From Halovivax limisalsi (GTDB lineage Archaea > Halobacteriota > Halobacteria > Halobacteriales > Natrialbaceae), in contig NZ_CP095757.1 of NCBI RefSeq assembly GCF_023093535.1, forward strand, positions 2,480,001 through 2,544,000: a stretch of 64,000 nucleotides of DNA, written 5' to 3'. Under the pieces are notes generated by a model. That model saw only the letters and a program-made list of their open reading frames with translations, was not told the origin of the DNA and ran no database searches. Both the position numbers and the translations under genes were made by a program. Below are positions 31,860 to 45,620 of this stretch, one piece after another; positions within the stretch are counted from its first letter, which is position 1; the number at the start of each line of letters is the position of its first letter.

Positions 31860-33737
31860 TCAGGGACGGGCGCGAACCGCTATGGCGGCGCTCGCGACGA
31901 GGGCGACGAGGGCGACGGCGGCGCCGAAGCCTGGCATACCGTCATCGCCGTCGTTCGCCTCGGGTTCGGCGTCCGCGGCCTCCGTCGTGGAGCCGACCGA
32001 GTCGGACCCGGTCTGGGCCGTGCCGGCGCCCGAATCGGAGGAGTGGCTCTTCTTCTCGTCTGGTTCCTCGTGGTCGCCCTTCTTCTCGTGGGCTTGCCCG
32101 TCGTCGAGCTGGCCTTCGTTGTACGTCGTCGCACTCGCGTTGGCGACCTGGGCGTTCTCGTTCTCCTGGATCGTGACCTGCAGCGCGGAGGCGTCGCCGT
32201 CGTCGCTCGCCACCGCGATGGCGTTGTTCGAGTGGAAGTTGATCTGGACGACCTCCTGGCTCTGCTCGACCTCGGCGGTGGACCACTGCTCGACGTCGTT
32301 GTACTGATCGGCGGGCCCCTCGTAGTCGAACGTCGTTCGGTTGGCGTCGACGAGTTGCTCGCCGCCGAGCGTGAGCGCGGTCGACTCCGTGAGCGTCGCG
32401 CCGGTGAAGTTCTGGCCGGCTTCGGGCATCCCGTCCCCGCCGTCGTGGCCCTTCTGCTTCGGCAGCTCCTCGCCCTCCTCCAGGAAGATGTTGAGGGCGT
32501 CGGCGCTCGCGACCTGGGCGTTGACGTTCTGCTGGAAGGTCAGCTGGACGGCTTCGGCCGTGCTTCCGTTCGTGGCGATCGCCGTCGCCGAGCTGTTGAG
32601 GTGGATGTTGGCCTGCTGGGCGCTCTGGTACTGCACGACGCTGGCCTCTGCGACCTGTTCGACGTCGTCTCCGTGGTCACCGTCTTTCTTCTCCTTCGGT
32701 TCGGCCTCCTCGAAGGCGTCCTGGGTGACCACCGGCGTCGAGGCACCGATCGACGCCATGGCGACGTTCATGCCGGCCGACTCCATGACGGCGTTGACCG
32801 CCTCGGCCGTCGCGAGCTGCTCGTTCAGGTTCGTCTGTTCGGTCATCTGGACCGCGATGGCCGTCGAGTCCTCGCCGACGGCGATCGCGACCGCCGCACC
32901 CTGTTCGAAAGTGTTCACCTGGTCGACCGCCTGGGACTGCTCGATCGTCGCGTTCGCCGTCTGGTCGACGAGTATGCCCCGGCGGTCACCCTTCTTGTGT
33001 TTCGTGTGCCGGTCGTCGTCCTCGTCGAGATCGGCCGCGAGGACGTTCGACGCGTTGGCCGCGCCCTCCTGGAGGTTGTAGTTCGCCTGCTCGGTGTACT
33101 GGACCGCGGTGGCGTCGCTGTCGTCCTCCGCGAGCGCGAACGCGGTCGTGTTCTGGGCGACGTTGGCCTGCTCGACTGACTGATTCTGGGTGACGCCGGC
33201 GACCGCCGTCTGGCTGGCGGTGACGTCGCCGTCGTCGCCGGCGACCGCCCATCCGTCGTAAGCGTTGTCGCCGTTGTTCCCGACGACGAGGTAGACGTCG
33301 TCGACGCCCTCGAAGATCGACTCGTGACTCGAGGCCGGCTGGCTCACCGCCGTCGCCGAACCGTCCTGCGTGTTCGCGTTATCCTGGGTGACGTCCTGGA
33401 CGGCGATCGCGTTGCCGCCGCCGATGGCGACGGAGACGGCTTCGCCCTCCTCGACGACGTTCACCTGGTCGACGTCCTGATACTGGATGACCTGCGCGCC
33501 GGAACCGGTCCCGTCGGCGCCGTCGCCCGCGTGCTGCTCGATGTACTCGTCGAGGCTCATATCGCCCAGGTCCGCGCCGAAGGCGAGGTAGAGGTCCTCT
33601 CCGTTCTCTAGCGTCTCGATCGTCTGTGTCGGCGAACTGTCCTCGCCGGCGATGGCGGCCGGGCCGGCCGCCGTAACCAGCGATAGTGCAACCATACAGG
33701 CGATCAGTATCGTCGTGAATCGTGACTGTGCTGACAT
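31860..33737 (-). CDS. PGF-CTERM surface protein with five curlin-like Gln/Asn repeats
   Basis: A 625-residue secreted protein. Residues 1-31 form a Sec-type signal peptide ending near AIAGE. Five repeats of about 45-57 residues (about 82-129, 175-229, 259-314, 359-415, 482-536) each have a first unit with Q-x-Q-x-x-x-Q-x-N and a second unit with AVQ-x-T-x-Q-x-N-x-N-x-Q. Between them lie alternating Ala/Val strand-like segments and charged Lys/His/Asp linkers. Regular Gln/Asn ladders of this kind are the hallmark of curlin-type amyloid repeats. A Ser/Thr/Glu-rich stalk (about 545-598) leads to MPGFGAAVALVALVASAA and terminal Arg residues, a PGF-CTERM sorting signal for archaeosortase and lipid anchoring. 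The amyloid nature is inferred. Confidence 0.82.
   Translation of the reverse strand: MSAQSRFTTILIACMVALSLVTAAGPAAIAGEDSSPTQTIETLENGEDLYLAFGADLGDMSLDEYIEQHAGDGADGTGSGAQVIQYQDVDQVNVVEEGEAVSVAIGGGNAIAVQDVTQDNANTQDGSATAVSQPASSHESIFEGVDDVYLVVGNNGDNAYDGWAVAGDDGDVTASQTAVAGVTQNQSVEQANVAQNTTAFALAEDDSDATAVQYTEQANYNLQEGAANASNVLAADLDEDDDRHTKHKKGDRRGILVDQTANATIEQSQAVDQVNTFEQGAAVAIAVGEDSTAIAVQMTEQTNLNEQLATAEAVNAVMESAGMNVAMASIGASTPVVTQDAFEEAEPKEKKDGDHGDDVEQVAEASVVQYQSAQQANIHLNSSATAIATNGSTAEAVQLTFQQNVNAQVASADALNIFLEEGEELPKQKGHDGGDGMPEAGQNFTGATLTESTALTLGGEQLVDANRTTFDYEGPADQYNDVEQWSTAEVEQSQEVVQINFHSNNAIAVASDDGDASALQVTIQENENAQVANASATTYNEGQLDDGQAHEKKGDHEEPDEKKSHSSDSGAGTAQTGSDSVGSTTEAADAEPEANDGDDGMPGFGAAVALVALVASAAIAVRARP
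32130..33494 (-). repeat. Five coding repeats (curlin-like modules) in the surface protein
   Basis: Protein-level repeats, diverged at DNA level. Core phrases, in order: QYQDVDQVN with AVQDVTQDNANTQ; TQNQSVEQAN with AVQYTEQANYNLQ; EQSQAVDQVN with AVQMTEQTNLNEQ; QYQSAQQAN with AVQLTFQQNVNAQ; EQSQEVVQIN with ALQVTIQENENAQ. The five modules are separated by linkers of about 30-67 residues. Confidence 0.8.
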
Positions 33738-34326: not shown

Positions 34327-34599
34327 TCACTCACCAGCGATCAGCGACGAACGGGGACCCGACCGCTGAGTTGAAACGTGAAAAACCGCCTCGAAAGCGA
34401 CTCCAAGAAGTCTGACCACCGTCGACACCAGCCAGTAGAGCGAGCCAGCGGCGAGGAGGTACGCGAGCGCGATCAGGAGGTTTCGCCGGGGCGCGTTCGG
34501 TTTTATTCCCGGGAGCGTTCCGATCGGAAGCATCGCCGGGCCGGACCAACGATCGAAGGATGGGTCCGGAAGGCGTCCGGTCATATTCGGCGTTCTCAT
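34327..34599 (-). CDS. Small membrane protein, 90 residues, unknown function
   Basis: A single long hydrophobic segment (NLLIALAYLLAAGSLYWLVSTVV, residues about 40-62; sequence split by family context only) with a basic stretch before it. Its ATG overlaps the TGA of the upstream HTH gene by four bases (ATGA), strong evidence that it is real and co-translated. It probably partners the membrane-bound regulator. No family recognised. Confidence 0.65.
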   Translation of the reverse strand: MRTPNMTGRLPDPSFDRWSGPAMLPIGTLPGIKPNAPRRNLLIALAYLLAAGSLYWLVSTVVRLLGVAFEAVFHVSTQRSGPRSSLIAGE

Positions 34600-35264
34600 C
34601 GCTCGAACGCGACTTCGGGTGGTCGCTCCCCCACGCCGAGGCGGTGTCGTCGGTCACCGCGGGCGTGAACGGCTGCGGAGAGACAGACGATCAGAAGGAT
34701 CGTGCTCGCCCAGGCGACGGGAGAAACGAGACTGAATATCGAAATACCCATCGCACTCAGTCCGGTCAGGACGAGGCCGGCCACGGACGCGCCGGCGTAA
34801 AAGACGCTCCAGGGAACGTCGTTCGCCGGAATCAGGTCCAGGTAGACGTCGAGGTCGTCTAATACGGCGGTTCGGTCGATGACGCCGGCGCGTTCGTCGT
34901 ACGCGACGAGCGACGCCTCCGCGAGTTTGGGCAGGTGAAATTGCTGCAGCGCCGTGTAGACGCGTTTTCGTTCCGCGGCCCCGATCGATTCGATGGAACC
35001 GTCGTTCTCCCAGGCTGCGATCCGCTCGGCCAGTTCGTCGAGGCTGACCGGCCGACCGCGCCACTCCAGGTAGTGAATGACGTACCGTCGGCGGCGATTG
35101 CCGAGCACCTTGTAGATCTCGTCTTTCGAAGGAGGGTCCCCGTCGGTCGGCGCCGACCGTGCAGCCCGAGAGCCGCCGACCGAGTGACCGGGTGACTCGT
35201 TCGACACACCTGTCGGTCCGTCGGCGATCGGGTGGTCCGTCCGGTCAGAGGTCTTGGGTCCCAT
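34596..35264 (-). CDS. Membrane-anchored HTH regulator (DUF7344-like)
   Basis: A 222-residue protein. After a disordered 45-residue start comes a winged-helix-like domain (SKDEIYKVLGNRRRRYVIHYLEW, then SLDELAERIAAWEN and RKRVYTALQQFHLPKLAEASLVAYDE), matching the haloarchaeal DUF7344 type. Two adjacent hydrophobic segments near the C-terminus (VFYAGASVAGLVLTGLSA and FSLVSPVAWASTILLIVCL) anchor it. ATG 35264 sits about 30 bases after the TATA-like cctttactatc block (about 35290-35300). It is divergent from the secreted Gln/Asn protein gene, so it may control that locus. Confidence 0.78.
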   Translation of the reverse strand: MGPKTSDRTDHPIADGPTGVSNESPGHSVGGSRAARSAPTDGDPPSKDEIYKVLGNRRRRYVIHYLEWRGRPVSLDELAERIAAWENDGSIESIGAAERKRVYTALQQFHLPKLAEASLVAYDERAGVIDRTAVLDDLDVYLDLIPANDVPWSVFYAGASVAGLVLTGLSAMGISIFSLVSPVAWASTILLIVCLSAAVHARGDRRHRLGVGERPPEVAFER

Positions 35265-35831
35265 CGGTCTCGGTCCGAACTGGCACCGACCGGGATAGTA
35301 AAGGTGTTTGGTCGGCAACATGAGTATTCAATATCGGTGGTTGTCCCCCGCTGCGGGGGTATCAGGCGGTCTGGCGGAGAGACCGAACGAACGAGAACGG
35401 GGCTGGCACACACCGCAGTCGCGCAGTCGGGAATCCACGCGGCTGCGGTCAGTTGACCATCCCGCATCGTCGGGCCCACGCCCGGTAGCCGGCACGCACC
35501 CGCGGATGCGTCAGTTCTCAGATCAACACCCGCCACGTCGTAGAGATACGCTACGGCGTCGAAACACGGCGAAACGGTCCGAAACAGTCGCGGGGCTGCG
35601 TTCCCGACTGAATTGAGCGTCATCGATCCGGTACCCGAGTGCGCCAACCGACAACTACCGTCAGGCATTACCGGTTCAAACGCGTGATTGCGACCGGAAA
35701 CCTGATCGAACCGCTCCGGCAAACACCTCTAATACAAATGTCACGCCCGTCGGCCAACGGAGTGTGCGTGCTATCCGGTCGAGATCAGCTCGCAACCGCA
35801 GCACGCGCATCGAACAACGGAGGTCAATACG
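35265..35831. promoter_or_regulatory. Divergent control region of the surface-protein locus
   Basis: 567 bases without a supported gene. It contains the TATA of the membrane HTH gene (about 35290-35300, minus strand). A strong inverted repeat CCCCCGC-T-GCGGGGG lies at 35345-35359. A TATA-like ctaatacaaa block (about 35727-35738) is suitable for a leader of about 75 bases before the gene at 35832. GGAGGT at 35819-35824 is a strong ribosome binding site 7 bases before that ATG, so this gene is not leaderless. Confidence 0.55.
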
Positions 35832-36197
35832 ATGAAACGAGCACTCACGGTTACACTGACGATGGCAGTAGCGATCGGCATGTTGTTCATGCTGGGATTC
35901 GCGGGCGGCGCGGCCGCACAGGATGTCGACTGGAACCAATCCGGCGGCGACGGCGGTGACGGCGGCTTCGCCTGGGCTGATTCAGACGTCGAGCAGACGA
36001 ACAGCAACAACCAGGCGGGGAACGCTCAGGCCTGGAAAGGAGACGCCGGCGTGATCAACGTCCAGGATAGCACCCAGGTCAATGCCGCGGACACGACCGT
36101 TACCGCCGACGCCTCCGGCGGTGACGGTGGTGACGGTGGTAACAGCAGTTTCGACATCGACTTCGATAACTCCACCATCACGTTGCCCATAACGTGA
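35832..36197 (+). CDS. Small secreted Gln/Asn-rich protein with a curlin-like motif
   Basis: A 121-residue exported protein. Residues 1-29 are a classical Sec signal peptide ending AGGAAAQ. The mature part starts with a Gly/Asp-rich patch (SGGDGGDGG), then DVEQTNSNNQAGNAQAWKGD and VINVQDSTQVNAADTTV, a Gln/Asn pattern like the second unit of the large surface protein's repeats, then a second SGGDGGDGG and a short strand-like tail. No membrane anchor, so it is presumably released or assembled outside. Start supported by GGAGGT 7 bases upstream. Could be a minor amyloid subunit or nucleator; this is inference. Confidence 0.78.
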   Translation: MKRALTVTLTMAVAIGMLFMLGFAGGAAAQDVDWNQSGGDGGDGGFAWADSDVEQTNSNNQAGNAQAWKGDAGVINVQDSTQVNAADTTVTADASGGDGGDGGNSSFDIDFDNSTITLPIT

Positions 36198-36362: not shown

Positions 36363-37067
36363 ATGCACCAACCTCCCTTCCCGTCACGGTGTGCTCGACG
36401 ATCGGTAACCGGTCTGGCGATCGGCCTGGTCGCGATTACCATCATCACCGGTGCAGCCGTGACAGCGGGCATCGGCGACGGTTCGAACGGTCTCGGCGGC
36501 GAACCGGACCGCTCGATGAATGACGCCACGAACGAAACAACGTTCGACTGGGGAACCGTAACGAGCGAGCGATCGGCGGACGAAACGGTGCTCGACGTGA
36601 ACGTCACCGTCGAATCCGAGGGAGGGGCCTCCGTATCGGCCATCTCGGTGCCAAATGCTAGCGAACGCGTGCGAAAAACCGAGAAAGACGCCGAATACGA
36701 CTCGTTCGAGTGGGGTGCTGTCCGCCACGAGAACGATTCCGACACCGGCGCCGTCGACGTCACCGTGATCGTCGACGCCGAGGAAAACGTCTCCCTCTCC
36801 GTGAGGACGGTCGGCGAAAACGGCTCGCAGTCCAGTTCGACGACGATCGTGTCCGCCAGCGGCGAGCCCGGATGGGACGGCGAGAACGGGACGGACGGGA
36901 GCGCCAGCGTCGCGGGCGAGCCAGGCGAGGACGGCGAACCCGGCGCCGCGTCGACGAACATCACGGTATCCCAAACGACGAAGAGCGGGGCTGCACTCGG
37001 CGAATCGATCGGCTCGATCGACGCAAGCGGCGTTTCGATCGATATCGACGATGGCGAGGACGAGTAA
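36363..37067 (+). CDS. Secreted protein with a short collagen-like stretch
   Basis: A 234-residue protein with an N-terminal signal-like segment (Arg-rich then TGLAIGLVAITIITGAAVTAG, residues about 16-37). The middle has two similar segments of about 55 residues: FDWGTVTSERSADETVLDVN and FEWGAVRHENDSDTGAVDVT, each followed by a Val/Ser strand block, so a duplicated beta domain is likely. A Gly-rich part (GEPGWDGENGTDG, then GEPGEDGEPGA) recalls collagen-like triplets. No C-terminal anchor. It follows the small secreted protein on the same strand, 165 bases downstream. Confidence 0.72.
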   Translation: MHQPPFPSRCARRSVTGLAIGLVAITIITGAAVTAGIGDGSNGLGGEPDRSMNDATNETTFDWGTVTSERSADETVLDVNVTVESEGGASVSAISVPNASERVRKTEKDAEYDSFEWGAVRHENDSDTGAVDVTVIVDAEENVSLSVRTVGENGSQSSSTTIVSASGEPGWDGENGTDGSASVAGEPGEDGEPGAASTNITVSQTTKSGAALGESIGSIDASGVSIDIDDGEDE

Positions 37068-37682: not shown

Positions 37683-38666
37683 TCAGTCCGCGAAGAACGC
37701 GCCCGCGACGAGCAGCGGGAAGACCAGCGTCGCCTCGGCGTTGATCTCGGTGTAGTTCGTCTCGTCGGTGGCCTTGATCTTCCCCCAGGAGACGGCCTCG
37801 TTCGGCGGCGCGCCCGAAAGCGAGCCGTCGCCCTCCATCCCGGTCTGGATGTAGATGGCGTAGTCCGCGCCCCCGCGGAAGAGGTTGGTCATGATCGCGT
37901 GGTGCTTCGGGACGCCCGCGCCGACCGCGATGAGCCCGGTCGTGTCCCGGAGCATGCCGTCGCTGATCAGCGAGTCGTAATCCTCGACGATCTCGATGCC
38001 GACGTCGGCCGTGTCGGGACGCTGGCGGTAGTAGTAGAGGAAGTTACCCACCTCGGCGTCGGTGAGCGCGGGACAGTAGATCGGGACGTCGTGCTCGGCG
38101 GCCTGTTTCAGCACCGAGTCCTCGTCGTCGAGCGTCTCGCCGAGTTCCCGGGCGAACTCCGAGGGCGTCCGGATCGCGTCCTCGGCGAAGAAGTCGTCGA
38201 AGAAGTCGTAGAGGTACTCCTCGAGCCAGACGTAGCGGTCCGAGGGGACGAAGATGTTGCCGAGGCGGTTGATGCCGCGCTCGCGCAGGGCCGCCTCGTC
38301 GGCCGTCCACCGGCCCATCTTGAACGGTTTGGCGGTCTTGATGACGTCCTCGGTGATCGACCCCGCCGTCGTGATGAGGACGTCGACGTACCCCTCGCGG
38401 ACGAGCGCGGCGACGACCTCGCGGAGCCCCGACGAGATAACGTTCGAGGTGAGGGTGAGGTAGATCGTCGCGTCGTCGGCTCGCATCCGGTCGGCGATGT
38501 CGATGGCGTCGGCGAGGTGCGTCGCCTGGAAGCCGGTCGTCGCGTAACTCTCGAGCAGTGCTGTCAGGTCGACGTCGCCGCGGAAGTCGTACCCGCGGAC
38601 GTCGGCCCCGTCGAGTTCCTCGTCGGTCCCGGGGACGACGTGATCGCGCGAATCGGATGGGTCCAT
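37683..38666 (-). CDS. dys: Deoxyhypusine synthase
   Basis: A 327-residue enzyme that transfers the butylamine of spermidine (or a related donor) to a lysine of translation factor aIF5A. Signatures: YLTLTSNVISSGLREVVAALV, DVLITTAGSITEDVIK, GNIFVPSDRYVWLEEYLYDFFDDFF, and the active-site lysine in EAVSWGKIKATD, with GAGVPKHHAIMTNLFRGGADYAIYIQTG before it. Length is normal for archaeal DHS. No aIF5A gene is in the window. Confidence 0.95.
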   Translation of the reverse strand: MDPSDSRDHVVPGTDEELDGADVRGYDFRGDVDLTALLESYATTGFQATHLADAIDIADRMRADDATIYLTLTSNVISSGLREVVAALVREGYVDVLITTAGSITEDVIKTAKPFKMGRWTADEAALRERGINRLGNIFVPSDRYVWLEEYLYDFFDDFFAEDAIRTPSEFARELGETLDDEDSVLKQAAEHDVPIYCPALTDAEVGNFLYYYRQRPDTADVGIEIVEDYDSLISDGMLRDTTGLIAVGAGVPKHHAIMTNLFRGGADYAIYIQTGMEGDGSLSGAPPNEAVSWGKIKATDETNYTEINAEATLVFPLLVAGAFFAD

Positions 38667-38780
38667 GGCGAACGATACCGGGAGCGAGGGTTTGAATGAC
38701 TCGAACCGCGCCCGTCAGGGCCGATCAGGGAAGGGTGCACTGGACCGGCCGCAGCTACCAACGCCCGACCGTCGTCACGA

Positions 38781-38881
38781 TCGAGGGTGCTACCAGCCGA
38801 ACGTGGCCTGGGTCGAAGGTGCTACAGCCGAACGTAGCCTCGATCGAGGGCCTACTGGCCGAGCGTGGCCTCGATCGGGGG
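38781..38881. repeat. Tandem 31-32-base repeat duplicating the 3' end of the HTH gene
   Basis: Three full imperfect copies start at 38781, 38813 and 38844, with a partial fourth at 38875 (spacings 32, 31, 31). Each begins TCGAGG or similar and contains GCCGAACGTGGCCT or a variant. Read on the minus strand, each copy re-encodes the last residues of the HTH protein (PIEATLGQ) and a TAG stop. Confidence 0.75.
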
Positions 38882-39523
38882 TTCGGACTCGGCCGCCGGC
38901 AGTTCCTCGACGAATCGCTTGATGACCGTCTCCTCCGCGCGGTGGAGCGTCTCGCTGCAGGTCGACTTGGCGATGTCCAGCCGGTCGGCCAGCTCGGTCA
39001 GCGTACACCGCCGCGGCGTGTCGTAGTAGCCTTCCTCGACGGCAGCGAGGATGACTTCCCGCTGACGTCCGGAGAGCAACTGACTCTCGTGGAGGCGCTC
39101 GCGAACGTGCTCGACGCGGTACTGCAGCCCGAACGCGGTGAGCTGGTCGGCCAGTTCCGACAGACGCTCGCGCGAGCCCGTCACGTCGATCTCGGCCTCG
39201 CCGTCGCGGATGTCGATCGGCAGCTCGATCGGCAGCCCCGACTCCTGCGAGGAGAACAGCAGGAGCGGCGCGGTCGTCTCGAAGTGGACCGTCACCTCTC
39301 CCTCGCTTACCTGGGCCGGCGTCAGTTCGGTGATCTGCTCGTGTTCGGCCATCGACTCGACGACCGCTTCCGGGTCCTCGGCGGTGATCCGGACCAGCGC
39401 GAAGCCGCTCTCTTCGCCCGGAACGCCCGCGAGTACGCGAAACGTCGCCTCGGGGTTCGCCCGCGAGAGCTGTGCGATCCAGACGTGTTCGGGCAGCGTC
39501 ACCGCGAGCGTCGCGTGAGCCAT
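38852..39523 (-). CDS. Bat-type HTH-10 transcription regulator
   Basis: A 223-residue regulator. The N-terminal domain resembles the Bat sensor-like region (LAVTLPEHVWIAQLSRANPEATFRVL, VRITAEDPEAVVE). The C-terminal HTH-10 is clear: LLSGRQREVILAAVEEGYYDTPRRCTLTELADRLDIAKSTCSETLHRAEETVIKRFVEEL. Genes of this type control phototrophy, respiratory and redox genes in haloarchaea. It sits next to, and divergent from, the DUF2249/nirK cluster, which makes it a candidate regulator. Its 3' end is tandemly duplicated in the adjacent DNA. Confidence 0.88.
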   Translation of the reverse strand: MAHATLAVTLPEHVWIAQLSRANPEATFRVLAGVPGEESGFALVRITAEDPEAVVESMAEHEQITELTPAQVSEGEVTVHFETTAPLLLFSSQESGLPIELPIDIRDGEAEIDVTGSRERLSELADQLTAFGLQYRVEHVRERLHESQLLSGRQREVILAAVEEGYYDTPRRCTLTELADRLDIAKSTCSETLHRAEETVIKRFVEELPAAESEPPIEATLGQ

Positions 39524-42460: not shown

Positions 42461-43546
42461 ATGACCGCACCCATCAACCGGCGGACGATGTTAGCTGCAG
42501 TGGGCGCAACCGGCGCGATGGCAGCCGCAGGGTGTATCGGCAGCTCGAGCAACGAGGGCAATCAGGAGGAACCGAGCGACGGCGAACAGGAAGACGGCGG
42601 ACTCGAGTCGGCGAAGTCGGTCGACGTCGACCGGATCGCGGCGGATCCGACGGACGTGCCGGCCCCGGTCGACTGGTCGGAGCCGCGAACCCACGAGCTC
42701 GAAATCGAGACGACCGAGCGGACCGCCGAGATCGAGCCGGGCGTCACCTTCGACTACATGACGTTCGGCGATCAGGTCCCGGGCCCGATGATCCGCGTTC
42801 GCCGCGGCGACACGATTCGGCTCACCCTGACGAACTCGACGGAATCGGCGGTCGTCCACAACATCGACCTCCACGCCGTCTACGGACCCGGCGGCGGCGC
42901 TGACGACACGATGGTCGATCCCGGCCAGTCGGCGACGATCGAGTTCACGGCGATGTACCCCGGCGTCCACGTCTACCACTGTGCGGTCCCGGACATGGAC
43001 ATGCACATCAGCGCGGGGATGTACGGGGCGATCCTCGTCGAGCCCGAGGACGGTCTCCCCGAAGTCGACCGCGAGCTGTACTTCGGGCAGAACGAGATCT
43101 ACACGAACGGCGCGCCCGGCGAGGAAGGCCACCACGCGTTCGATTACGACGCGATGCAGAACGAGGAGCCGACCTACGTCACCCTCAACGGCGAGGCCTA
43201 CGCGTTCACCGAGAACGGGTACGGACCGGTCACCGTCCAGAAAGGCGAGACGGTCCGCATCTTCCACGCCAACGGCGGCCCGAACCTGATGAGTTCCTGG
43301 CACGCCATCGGGAACGTCTGGAGCAAGCTCTACCGCGATGGCTCGCTTGCCTCCGAACCCGACCGGTACGTCGAGACGACGCCGGTCGTTCCCGGTTCCG
43401 TCGCCGCGGCCGAGATCGACACGCCGGTCCCCGGCCCGATCAAACTCGTCGACCACGCCCTCAGCCGGGTCGTCCGCAAGGGCATGCTCGGCGTGATCCA
43501 GGTCGAGGGCGAGCCGGAACCGGAGATCTTCAACCCGGACCCCTGA
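42461..43546 (+). CDS. nirK: Copper-containing nitrite reductase NirK
   Basis: A 361-residue enzyme reducing nitrite to nitric oxide. The Tat-type N-terminus with lipobox (NRRTMLAAVGATGAMAAAGC) makes it a surface lipoprotein. Domain 1 has type 1/type 2 copper ligands in VVHNIDLHAVYGPGGG (His133, catalytic Asp136, His138) and VYHCAVPDMDMHISAGM (His173, Cys174, His182, Met187). Domain 2 supplies the third type 2 His in SSWHAIG. Residues in FHANGGPN and GPIKLVDHALSRVVRKGMLGVIQVEG are typical of the family. The cupredoxin, SCO1 and thioredoxin genes downstream suggest electron supply and copper maturation. Confidence 0.95.
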   Translation: MTAPINRRTMLAAVGATGAMAAAGCIGSSSNEGNQEEPSDGEQEDGGLESAKSVDVDRIAADPTDVPAPVDWSEPRTHELEIETTERTAEIEPGVTFDYMTFGDQVPGPMIRVRRGDTIRLTLTNSTESAVVHNIDLHAVYGPGGGADDTMVDPGQSATIEFTAMYPGVHVYHCAVPDMDMHISAGMYGAILVEPEDGLPEVDRELYFGQNEIYTNGAPGEEGHHAFDYDAMQNEEPTYVTLNGEAYAFTENGYGPVTVQKGETVRIFHANGGPNLMSSWHAIGNVWSKLYRDGSLASEPDRYVETTPVVPGSVAAAEIDTPVPGPIKLVDHALSRVVRKGMLGVIQVEGEPEPEIFNPDP

Positions 43547-43656
43547 GCGGGTGACGCGCCCGCTCGGCCGGTGACCGAGCGACCCGACTGATCGGCCCTG
43601 ACGGGCCGTCACTCTACAGGCCGCACAGTACTGCGACTCGACAGCGAGCGTTCACC

Positions 43657-44232
43657 ATGCCACCCTACCGCCTCACCCGACGCGAGCTCCTCGGCGCCAG
43701 CGCCGGGGTCGCCAGTTTCGCCCTGGCGGGCTGTCTCGGCCGTGACGAGGATCCGACGGCGACCGGGACCGGCGAGCTCGGCTCGCCGACCGACCGGATC
43801 ACCGTCACGACGACCTCACGGCCGTTCCCCGAGTTCGACCCGCAGATCGTCCACCTCGCGGTCGGCGGGACCGTCGAGTGGTTCGTCGAGACGGGCCGCC
43901 ACGACGTGACGGCCTATCACCGCGACGTCCACCCGCCGCACAGAACCTCGGAGGGCGTCGACCCGTGGGGAAGCGACCGGCTCACCGGCGGCGGTGCGAC
44001 CTTCGAGCACACGTTCGAGCGTGAGGGGATCTACGACTACGTCGACACCCAGCAGGTCTGTACCTCACACGAGGTCGCGGGCAACATCGGTCGCGTCGTC
44101 GTCGGCTGGCCCGATCCGGACGCCGAGCCCGCGATGGCCGACCCGCCGGAGTCGATGCCCGATCGCGCCGCGCGCGCATTGCGGATGTTCAACGAGGAAT
44201 CGCGTCCGGTCCTCGAATCGCCACCTGACTAA
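43657..44232 (+). CDS. Halocyanin-like lipoprotein with axial Met replaced by Asn
   Basis: A 191-residue Tat-type lipoprotein (RRELLGASAGVASFALAGC, lipobox Cys26). It carries a cupredoxin domain. By alignment with the protein at 13130-13846, ligands would be His82, Cys135 and His138, but the residue at the Met position is Asn143 (CTSHEVAGN versus CVPHEESGM). A copper site without Met would have altered redox potential or be lost. Placed directly behind nirK, it is probably an electron donor or copper handler. The C-terminal helix (ESMPDRAARALRMFNEES) resembles that of the 13130-13846 protein, so the two may be paralogues. Confidence 0.82.
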   Translation: MPPYRLTRRELLGASAGVASFALAGCLGRDEDPTATGTGELGSPTDRITVTTTSRPFPEFDPQIVHLAVGGTVEWFVETGRHDVTAYHRDVHPPHRTSEGVDPWGSDRLTGGGATFEHTFEREGIYDYVDTQQVCTSHEVAGNIGRVVVGWPDPDAEPAMADPPESMPDRAARALRMFNEESRPVLESPPD

Positions 44233-44298
44233 CACGATCGACGAACGTCCGGTCGGCCACGCCGACCTGCGCGTCGTCCAGACAGACTACGATACAGC

Positions 44299-45072
44299 AT
44301 GATCCAGACACGCTCCACCGCCATCGACAGGCGACGATTCCTCGCAGTAGCCGGTTCGACGGCGGTGCTCGGCTCGACGGCTGGCTGTCTAGAGCGCTTC
44401 GAGTCCGGCGACGATCGCGACGACCTGGTCCTCTCGCCGCCGGAGAACCACGACCGGCTCGCCGACGCCGACCTCGACATCCCGATCTACGGCGAGGCGT
44501 TGCCCGAGGCGACGGTGCCGGCCGCGCTGTCGGATCGGTCGGTGACGACGACCGAGTTCGTCGGCGAGCGCATCACGATGCTGACGTTCATCTACACGTC
44601 CTGTACCACCGTCTGTCCCGGTCTGACCTCGTCGCTCCGCCGGGTCCAGGCCGACGCCACGCAACGCGGCTACGCCGACGAAATCGCGTTCCAGACGGTC
44701 ACGTTCGATCCCGAGTACGACACGCCGGACGTCCTTCGCTCGTACGGCCAGAATCTCGGGGTCGATTTCGACGTCGGGAACTGGTATTTCCTCCGACCGC
44801 CGACGCCGGAGGCCGCCCGCGACGTCGTGACCGAGACGTTCGGCGTGGCGTTCGAACGGGGCGAGGCCGACGAGAGCACGACTGGCGGCGAACAGCACGA
44901 CGAGGGTCACTCAGATGGCGAGTCGCACGACGGGCACGAGCGCCGATTCGCACACACCTCGTTGATCCTGCTCGTCAATCGTGCCGGCTTCGTCGAGCGC
45001 GCCTACACCGGCGGCCCGCCGCGTCCCGACCGATTGCTCGAGACGGTTCGAACCGTCGTCGAGGAGGGATGA
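44299..45072 (+). CDS. SCO1/SenC family copper chaperone, lipoprotein
   Basis: A 257-residue Tat-type lipoprotein (DRRRFLAVAGSTAVLGSTAGC). SCO features: thioredoxin fold with the copper Cys pair in YTSCTTVCPGLTSSL and His in RRFAHTSLILLV. A His/Asp/Glu-rich segment (DEGHSDGESHDGHE) before the His may also bind metal. SCO proteins insert copper into oxidase CuA centres and related sites; here the likely clients are NirK and cupredoxins. The TGA overlaps the next ATG (ATGA). Confidence 0.88.
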   Translation: MIQTRSTAIDRRRFLAVAGSTAVLGSTAGCLERFESGDDRDDLVLSPPENHDRLADADLDIPIYGEALPEATVPAALSDRSVTTTEFVGERITMLTFIYTSCTTVCPGLTSSLRRVQADATQRGYADEIAFQTVTFDPEYDTPDVLRSYGQNLGVDFDVGNWYFLRPPTPEAARDVVTETFGVAFERGEADESTTGGEQHDEGHSDGESHDGHERRFAHTSLILLVNRAGFVERAYTGGPPRPDRLLETVRTVVEEG

Positions 45073-45620
45073 TCGTGCGCCGACGCGACCTGCTCGCCGG
45101 CGCGGCCGGGCTCGCGGTCCTCGGTGGCGGCGCCGCGATGGCGATCGGCGACTTCGAACCGTGGGACCCCCAGGAGTCAATCGAGGCGGTCGAACTCCCC
45201 GGGATCGAGGCGCCGGGAAGCGTCGGCGGGCCGGTCGTCGTGCCGGAGCGTGGCTCGGTCACCGTCCTCGAGCTGTTCGCGACGTGGTGTAGCGTCTGCG
45301 AGGCCACGATGGAGCCGCTGGGGCGCGTTCACGAGGAATTCGGCGCCGAGGTGCAGTTCGTCTCCGTCACGAACGAACCCCTCGGCGGAACGACGACTGA
45401 AGCGGACGTCGCGGCGTGGTGGCGCGAACACGGCGGCGCGTGGCAACTCGCACGCGATCCGGAGTTCCAGTTGACCAAACGTGTCGGCGGGGCGGAAGTC
45501 CCGCAGCTGCTCGTCTTCGACGAGCGCAACGTCGTCACGTGGAACGAGACTGGATTCACCGCCGAGGGGGAACTCCGGTCCGCGATCGAGACCGTCCTGG
45601 GCGACGAGCACACCGCGTAG
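45069..45620 (+). CDS. TlpA-like thioredoxin-fold protein, Tat-exported
   Basis: A 183-residue exported thioredoxin. The Tat signal starts RRRDLLAGAAGLAVLGGGAAM and has no lipobox Cys. The active site reads FATWCSVCEATMEPL (CSVC), with cis-Pro in GGAEVPQLLVFD. TlpA and ResA types reduce disulfides for copper or heme protein maturation outside the cell. Overlap with the SCO1 gene points to joint delivery of reduced copper sites. ATG 45069 is used; GTG 45075 is possible. Confidence 0.88.
   Translation: MIVRRRDLLAGAAGLAVLGGGAAMAIGDFEPWDPQESIEAVELPGIEAPGSVGGPVVVPERGSVTVLELFATWCSVCEATMEPLGRVHEEFGAEVQFVSVTNEPLGGTTTEADVAAWWREHGGAWQLARDPEFQLTKRVGGAEVPQLLVFDERNVVTWNETGFTAEGELRSAIETVLGDEHTA

Follow-up and report, generated by a model that had tools for sequence, protein, structure and literature searches.

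The locus and the encoded proteins

The window, by which we mean the whole 64,000-nucleotide stretch of Halovivax limisalsi DNA that was analysed, encodes a modular secreted protein, here called BIG, and a smaller companion, here called SMALL (Table 1). The preliminary description of this DNA had placed the BIG ORF correctly, in both coordinates and strand.

Table 1. Features of BIG and of its neighbourhood, in window positions.
Feature	Residues	Position	Strand	Description or basis
BIG		31860..33737	(-)	ORF; 625-aa secreted protein, five two-coil Gln/Asn modules
Signal peptide	1-30	33648..33737	(-)	Sec-like, AxA end; sequence reading, and relatives aligning at the same start
Module 1	77-134	33336..33509	(-)	Motifs, predicted beta segments
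Module 2	174-234	33036..33218	(-)	Motifs, predicted beta segments
Module 3	257-318	32784..32969	(-)	Motifs, predicted beta segments
Module 4	359-419	32481..32663	(-)	Motifs, predicted beta segments
Module 5	484-541	32115..32288	(-)	Motifs, predicted beta segments
Acidic Ser/Thr-containing stalk	542-598	31944..32114	(-)	Predicted disordered
PGF-CTERM tail	599-625	31863..31943	(-)	Pfam and NCBIfam models
DUF7344 protein		34596..35321	(-)	Lies between BIG and SMALL; membrane segments predicted; at this position only in nearest relative
SMALL		35832..36197	(+)	121-aa secreted Gln/Asn companion, divergent from BIG; degenerate member of companion family
Collagen-like secreted protein		36363..37067	(+)	Short GEPG stretch; after SMALL; relatives at six BIG loci
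Presumed deoxyhypusine synthase-like gene and bacterio-opsin-activator-type HTH gene		37683..39523	(-)	Named by sequence reading
Presumed copper nitrite reductase-like, halocyanin-like, SCO1-like, and thioredoxin-like gene run		42461..45620	(+)	Named by sequence reading

The segment from residue 31 to 76 of BIG is conserved, and the linkers between the modules are long, charged, and variable. The stalk had been described as Ser/Thr/Glu-rich; it is indeed there, but with 17 Asp/Glu and 11 Ser/Thr per 59 residues it is primarily acidic. The PGF-CTERM tail scores above both curated cut-offs (19.9 bits against 18.8 for Pfam, 30.5 against 24.5 for NCBIfam), and archaeosortase A (TIGR04125, E = 1.2e-84) is encoded in the same genome. 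The signal peptide, the tail, and this sortase support the surface location proposed in the preliminary description. Apart from PGF-CTERM, no Pfam or NCBIfam model scored above its cut-off on BIG; Pfam matches to PilZN and GTP1_OBG lay below it and were ignored.

Repeat modules and their predicted fold

The motif Q-x-Q-x3-Q-x-N occurs five times in BIG, at residues 85, 184, 267, 369, and 492, and Q-x3-Q-x-N-x-N-x-Q also occurs five times, at residues 114, 213, 297, 398, and 520. In 20,000 shuffles of the protein, the mean counts were 0.02 and 0.0015, with maxima of 2 and 1, so the five Gln/Asn modules with two motifs noted at the outset are confirmed. A profile built from modules 2 and 3 recovers modules 1, 4, and 5 with E-values from 9e-11 to 5e-15, showing that the modules are true internal repeats. 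When BIG is aligned with 54 relatives, every module is seen to consist of two coils 26-28 residues apart, ten coils in all, and each of the two motifs marks one coil of the pair. The repeat unit is thus about 27 residues long, which refines the modules first described.

In the same alignment, the ladder of a coil is close to A-x-A-x-V-x-Q-x-Q-x3-Q-x-N-x-N-x-Q-x2-A-x-A-x-A. Most relatives have the full Q-x3-Q-x-N-x-N-x-Q ladder on both coils, whereas in the BIG of the window the first coil of each module lacks the second Asn or the last Gln (e.g., VNVVEEG, ANVAQNT). With loosened motifs, exactly 5 and 10 matches are found in 28 of the 55 family proteins. All ten coils are retained in most of the 55, and the Gln, Asn, and Ala positions of the ladder are invariant or nearly so. 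The modules evolve more slowly than the linkers, with identities of 62-72% against 44-63% and dN values of 0.18-0.26 against 0.28-0.52 (dS, 0.58-1.04).

AlphaFold2, run on full-length BIG with the alignment of 55 sequences, predicts long, paired beta segments for each of the five modules, with a pLDDT of about 80-94. Most linkers have a pLDDT below 50 and are modelled as disordered; half of the model is below 50, and the pTM is 0.50. Beta folds are a common output of AlphaFold for many repeats. When modules 2 and 3 were cut out and predicted alone, the pLDDT was 45, and no confident fold was obtained. This poor folding fits the reading that coils and modules would fold only together, as they would in one stack; alternatively, so short a piece of a repeat protein may simply be hard to predict.

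A Foldseek search of 350,542 PDB chains with the BIG model returned only three rows, all of them functional-amyloid chains and none significant: FapC (9nqd, E = 0.068), CsgA of Pontibacter (E = 0.57), and FapC again (9u4u, E = 5.6), with TM scores of 0.04-0.17. The identity of these matches may be suggestive, but because they are insignificant we give them little weight. No VIA-align match of the model reached a Z of 2, a BFVD fold search had nothing below 0.001, and a PDB sequence search with the single protein had no match. A PhoQ match (E = 0.018) of the family profile against PDB sequences is implausible. The structure prediction proposed earlier as a check thus gave beta strands in every module, while the stacked beta-solenoid expected from it is a possible reading of the model to which the fold matches add nothing significant.

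Relatives, anchors, and companion genes

Of 392 genomes drawn as a sample of the order, 87 carry relatives of BIG; most of these belong to the window's own taxonomic family, and all relatives are haloarchaeal. The genera include Natrinema, Natrialba, Natronorubrum, Halovivax, Natronococcus, Haladaptatus, Halegenticoccus, and Halomicrococcus. Matches to a two-module profile among 393 genomes of the phylum were confined to the window's family. An alignment-based scan of genome contigs gave 58 named loci with relatives; the scan of genome contigs with the single BIG sequence gave no match. The gene is absent from three of the four congeners of the window's species and is therefore dispensable in the genus. 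No relative was found in viral contigs, and the PHROG matches, which involved no more than 4 of 29 members, were inconsistent and weak, the best having E = 0.004, so a viral origin was rejected. PGF-CTERM is the one curated model that recognises the family consistently; a Tat-signal model matched 7 of 55 members weakly. No paper on the family was found in the literature library searched. BIG belongs to an undescribed, wholly haloarchaeal family of secreted Gln/Asn-ladder proteins.

Rule-based labels on 86 BIG loci, some of them duplicates of one genome, assign a PGF-CTERM anchor to 9, a twin-arginine-like leader to 21 (10 of these also with a Lys-rich tail), and a Sec-like leader without an anchor to 56. 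In a tree of 74 BIG proteins, the anchored type forms one clade inside the window's family, in which one locus (L069) was scored as unanchored, and appears separately in Halomicrococcus; the twin-arginine type is one clade except for one row. A single genome (G005) has two BIG copies, one anchored and one unanchored (L043, L048). The PGF-CTERM tail is a lineage-specific addition. Since the type of anchor and leader varies and the majority is unanchored, the anchor is not at the heart of the BIG design, contrary to the preliminary description, which had made it part of that design. The unanchored proteins would be released from the cell unless they assemble or stick.

A clade of BIG proteins (L108, L110-L112, L114-L122, L124-L126, L128) has twin-arginine-like leaders and often Lys-rich tails in place of Sec-like leaders and acidic stalks. 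Such strongly basic tails are unusual among haloarchaeal proteins.

BLAST clustering of neighbouring ORFs over about 69 BIG loci, some of them duplicates, yielded one family tied to BIG, namely short secreted proteins at 39 loci. These SMALL genes number one to four per locus, and 58 of 60 copies lie upstream of BIG and divergent from it, at a median distance of 728 bp. At E < 1e-3, the profile of the BIG modules picks up 29 of the 60 SMALL proteins and none of 1200 shuffles; on this profile comparison, about half of the copies carry a detectable module of the BIG kind. The SMALL protein of the window matches the profile only at E = 0.02 and was assigned to the companion family via its relatives (E = 1e-21 to that of genome G002). 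A regular expression based on the leader was too strict for finding SMALL genes (10 of 86 loci), and the BLAST cluster was used instead. This divergent small secreted companion upstream at 39 loci, and the ending of most relatives after module 5 with no anchor, are the new observations here.

The protein encoded after SMALL has a Pfam Collagen match below cut-off and is a possible accessory to the BIG system. Apart from it and SMALL, the neighbour clustering linked no dedicated secretion or assembly gene to BIG, and the remaining neighbours that recur appear to reflect ordinary synteny of the chromosome. The DUF7344 protein and a methyltransferase were rejected as parts of the system, since only the nearest relative has full matches to them at that position. 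At one Haladaptatus salinisoli locus (L130:5052-7008 (+)), there are five tandem small secreted Gln/Asn genes, four with a full two-coil module and one shorter, and no full BIG.

Comparison with curli and Fap, and the possible role of BIG

BIG shares several features with the curli subunits CsgA and CsgB (PF07012): it is secreted, has imperfect repeats with ladder Gln/Asn, comes as two subunit types from linked genes, and has predicted beta structure. The curlin core, however, is N-x-psi-x-psi-x-Q in a 23-residue repeat with X-G-X-X arcs (PMC10192328), whereas the repeat of about 27 residues in BIG has a Q-x-N-x-N-x-Q core between A-x-A-x-A rows, with paired coils, long linkers, and, in some members, the PGF-CTERM anchor. 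The Curlin_rpt profile did not match BIG or its 28 aligned relatives, while the E. coli control was positive. The minimal curli unit X6QXGX2NX10 occurs not at all or once in 50 of 55 family proteins and at most three times in any. The hhalign comparison of the BIG coil with E. coli CsgA/CsgB gave a probability of 0.3%, within the 0.1-1.1% of scrambled controls, using only ten curlin repeats, from which a deep profile may differ. CsgG and CsgF were not found in the genome that encodes BIG, with positive E. coli controls, although their absence is expected in a cell without an outer membrane. Curlin membership was rejected, the Pfam, own-genome, minimal-repeat, and hhalign searches all being negative; the term "curlin-like" used in the preliminary description is apt for the Gln/Asn-ladder pattern and does not extend to membership.

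Curlin_rpt proteins above cut-off do occur in 3 of 293 haloarchaeal genomes (G160, G031, and G262, at L143:5420-6463 (-), L144:6052-6789 (-), and L145:5885-6508 (+)). They have a signal peptide followed by short contiguous repeats such as NDADVDQRNKAFVDQDGKN, a layout unlike that of BIG. Archaea thus do have curlin-type repeats, in proteins separate from the BIG family. A 2012 survey counted a single archaeal protein with curli-like repeats, not named in its text (PMC3521004).

The FapC protein of Pseudomonas has imperfect repeats stacked as layers, flexible linkers, and conserved Asn/Gln networks (PMC12822426). Like FapC/FapB, BIG has imperfect repeats, Asn/Gln, and long flexible linkers, as seen in the model between the confident modules, and FapC heads the list of insignificant Foldseek matches. 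FapC differs in having three repeats, each one Greek-key layer, rather than five modules of two coils, and BIG showed no relation to it in the PDB sequence search and no significant fold match (TM at most 0.17). If its repeats are stacked with long linkers, as the model may indicate, BIG would be closer to FapC than to curlin. The use of extracellular amyloid by archaea is known from MspA of Methanospirillum, a sheath protein whose imperfect repeats have conserved Gly, Ala, Asn, and Gln (PMC6242892). By description, MspA resembles BIG as an archaeal extracellular protein with imperfect repeats and is set apart by two repeats of about 80 residues, a tubular sheath, and restriction to methanogens. 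The PGF-CTERM/archaeosortase A surface proteins share the tail and sortase of BIG, but most members of the BIG family have no such tail. We rate BIG among functional-amyloid-like repeat proteins and suggest by analogy that it may work like curli or FapC, with no detectable homology to either. The failed curlin membership leaves this suggestion of curli-like working undiminished.

With the export signals, repeats, conservation, linkage, and tail observed and the beta fold predicted, we infer the following arrangement. The coils would stack into a beta-solenoid in which Gln/Asn side chains hydrogen-bond along the axis, while the linkers loop out as in FapC. Through open edges, BIG and SMALL could then join end to end and build a fibre or matrix outside the cell. 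For the window's lineage, we picture BIG attached to the membrane by the sortase and acting like CsgB, as a cell-bound base or starting point; the anchorless BIG of most relatives would be a free matrix subunit. We give an even chance to this reading of the family, with stacked coils and a fibre or matrix formed together with the companions. It is supported by the motif counts against shuffles, coil conservation, slower change of the modules, predicted strands, linked SMALL genes, and the sortase. Against it are the insignificant fold matches, the pTM of 0.50, the tendency of AlphaFold toward beta folds, the lack of a linked assembly gene, and the three congeners with no BIG. The more specific proposal of a haloarchaeal two-component extracellular amyloid, independent of curli and Fap, in which a five-module subunit, anchored or free, co-assembles with tandem small companions and needs no dedicated outer-membrane secretion machinery, is tentative and, in our estimate, somewhat unlikely.

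The strongest alternative is a repeat adhesin or surface spacer that does not polymerise, in which a solenoid or separate modules hold the protein off the cell or bind a surface. The long charged linkers would suit such a protein, as would the stalk and the PGF-CTERM anchor that BIG has in the window's lineage; the fibre is conjectural, and the amyloid matches are insignificant; yet most relatives end anchorless at module 5, which is ill-suited to a stalk or a cell-bound adhesin, and the linked single-module companions suggest co-assembly. We regard an adhesin or spacer as quite possible, though at less than even chance. It is improbable that BIG is a mostly disordered Gln/Asn/Ala-rich secreted protein, such as a hydration or ion-binding matrix polymer, with strands imposed on the repeat by AlphaFold. 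Half of the model is of low confidence, and modules 2 and 3 alone gave no confident fold, but the alternating spacing is strict, with near-invariant inward positions in 55 proteins, and the modules change more slowly than the linkers and are predicted confidently in the full-length protein. True curlin, as a distant homologue of CsgA/CsgB, would account for the imperfect ladder repeats, the two subunit types, and the insignificant CsgA fold match, and a few haloarchaea do have true Curlin_rpt proteins. Nevertheless, we consider it very improbable: the Curlin_rpt profile does not match, QxGx2N is not repeated, the coil profile shows no similarity to the CsgA/CsgB repeats, neither CsgG nor CsgF was found, and the repeat differs in length and core.

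The biofilm matrix of Haloferax volcanii stains with Congo red and thioflavin T (PMC4180959). That matrix, known from dye staining, is haloarchaeal like BIG, and the BIG family is a concrete, widely distributed candidate for the amyloid that dyes suggest in haloarchaeal biofilms. If fibres form, haloarchaea would have converged on the solution of curli and Fap with brine-stable proteins that cross only one membrane on export. A member of the family is present in Natrinema gari (L082), and genome editing is reported for N. gari J7-2 (PMC10433800), so that a deletion test looks practical.
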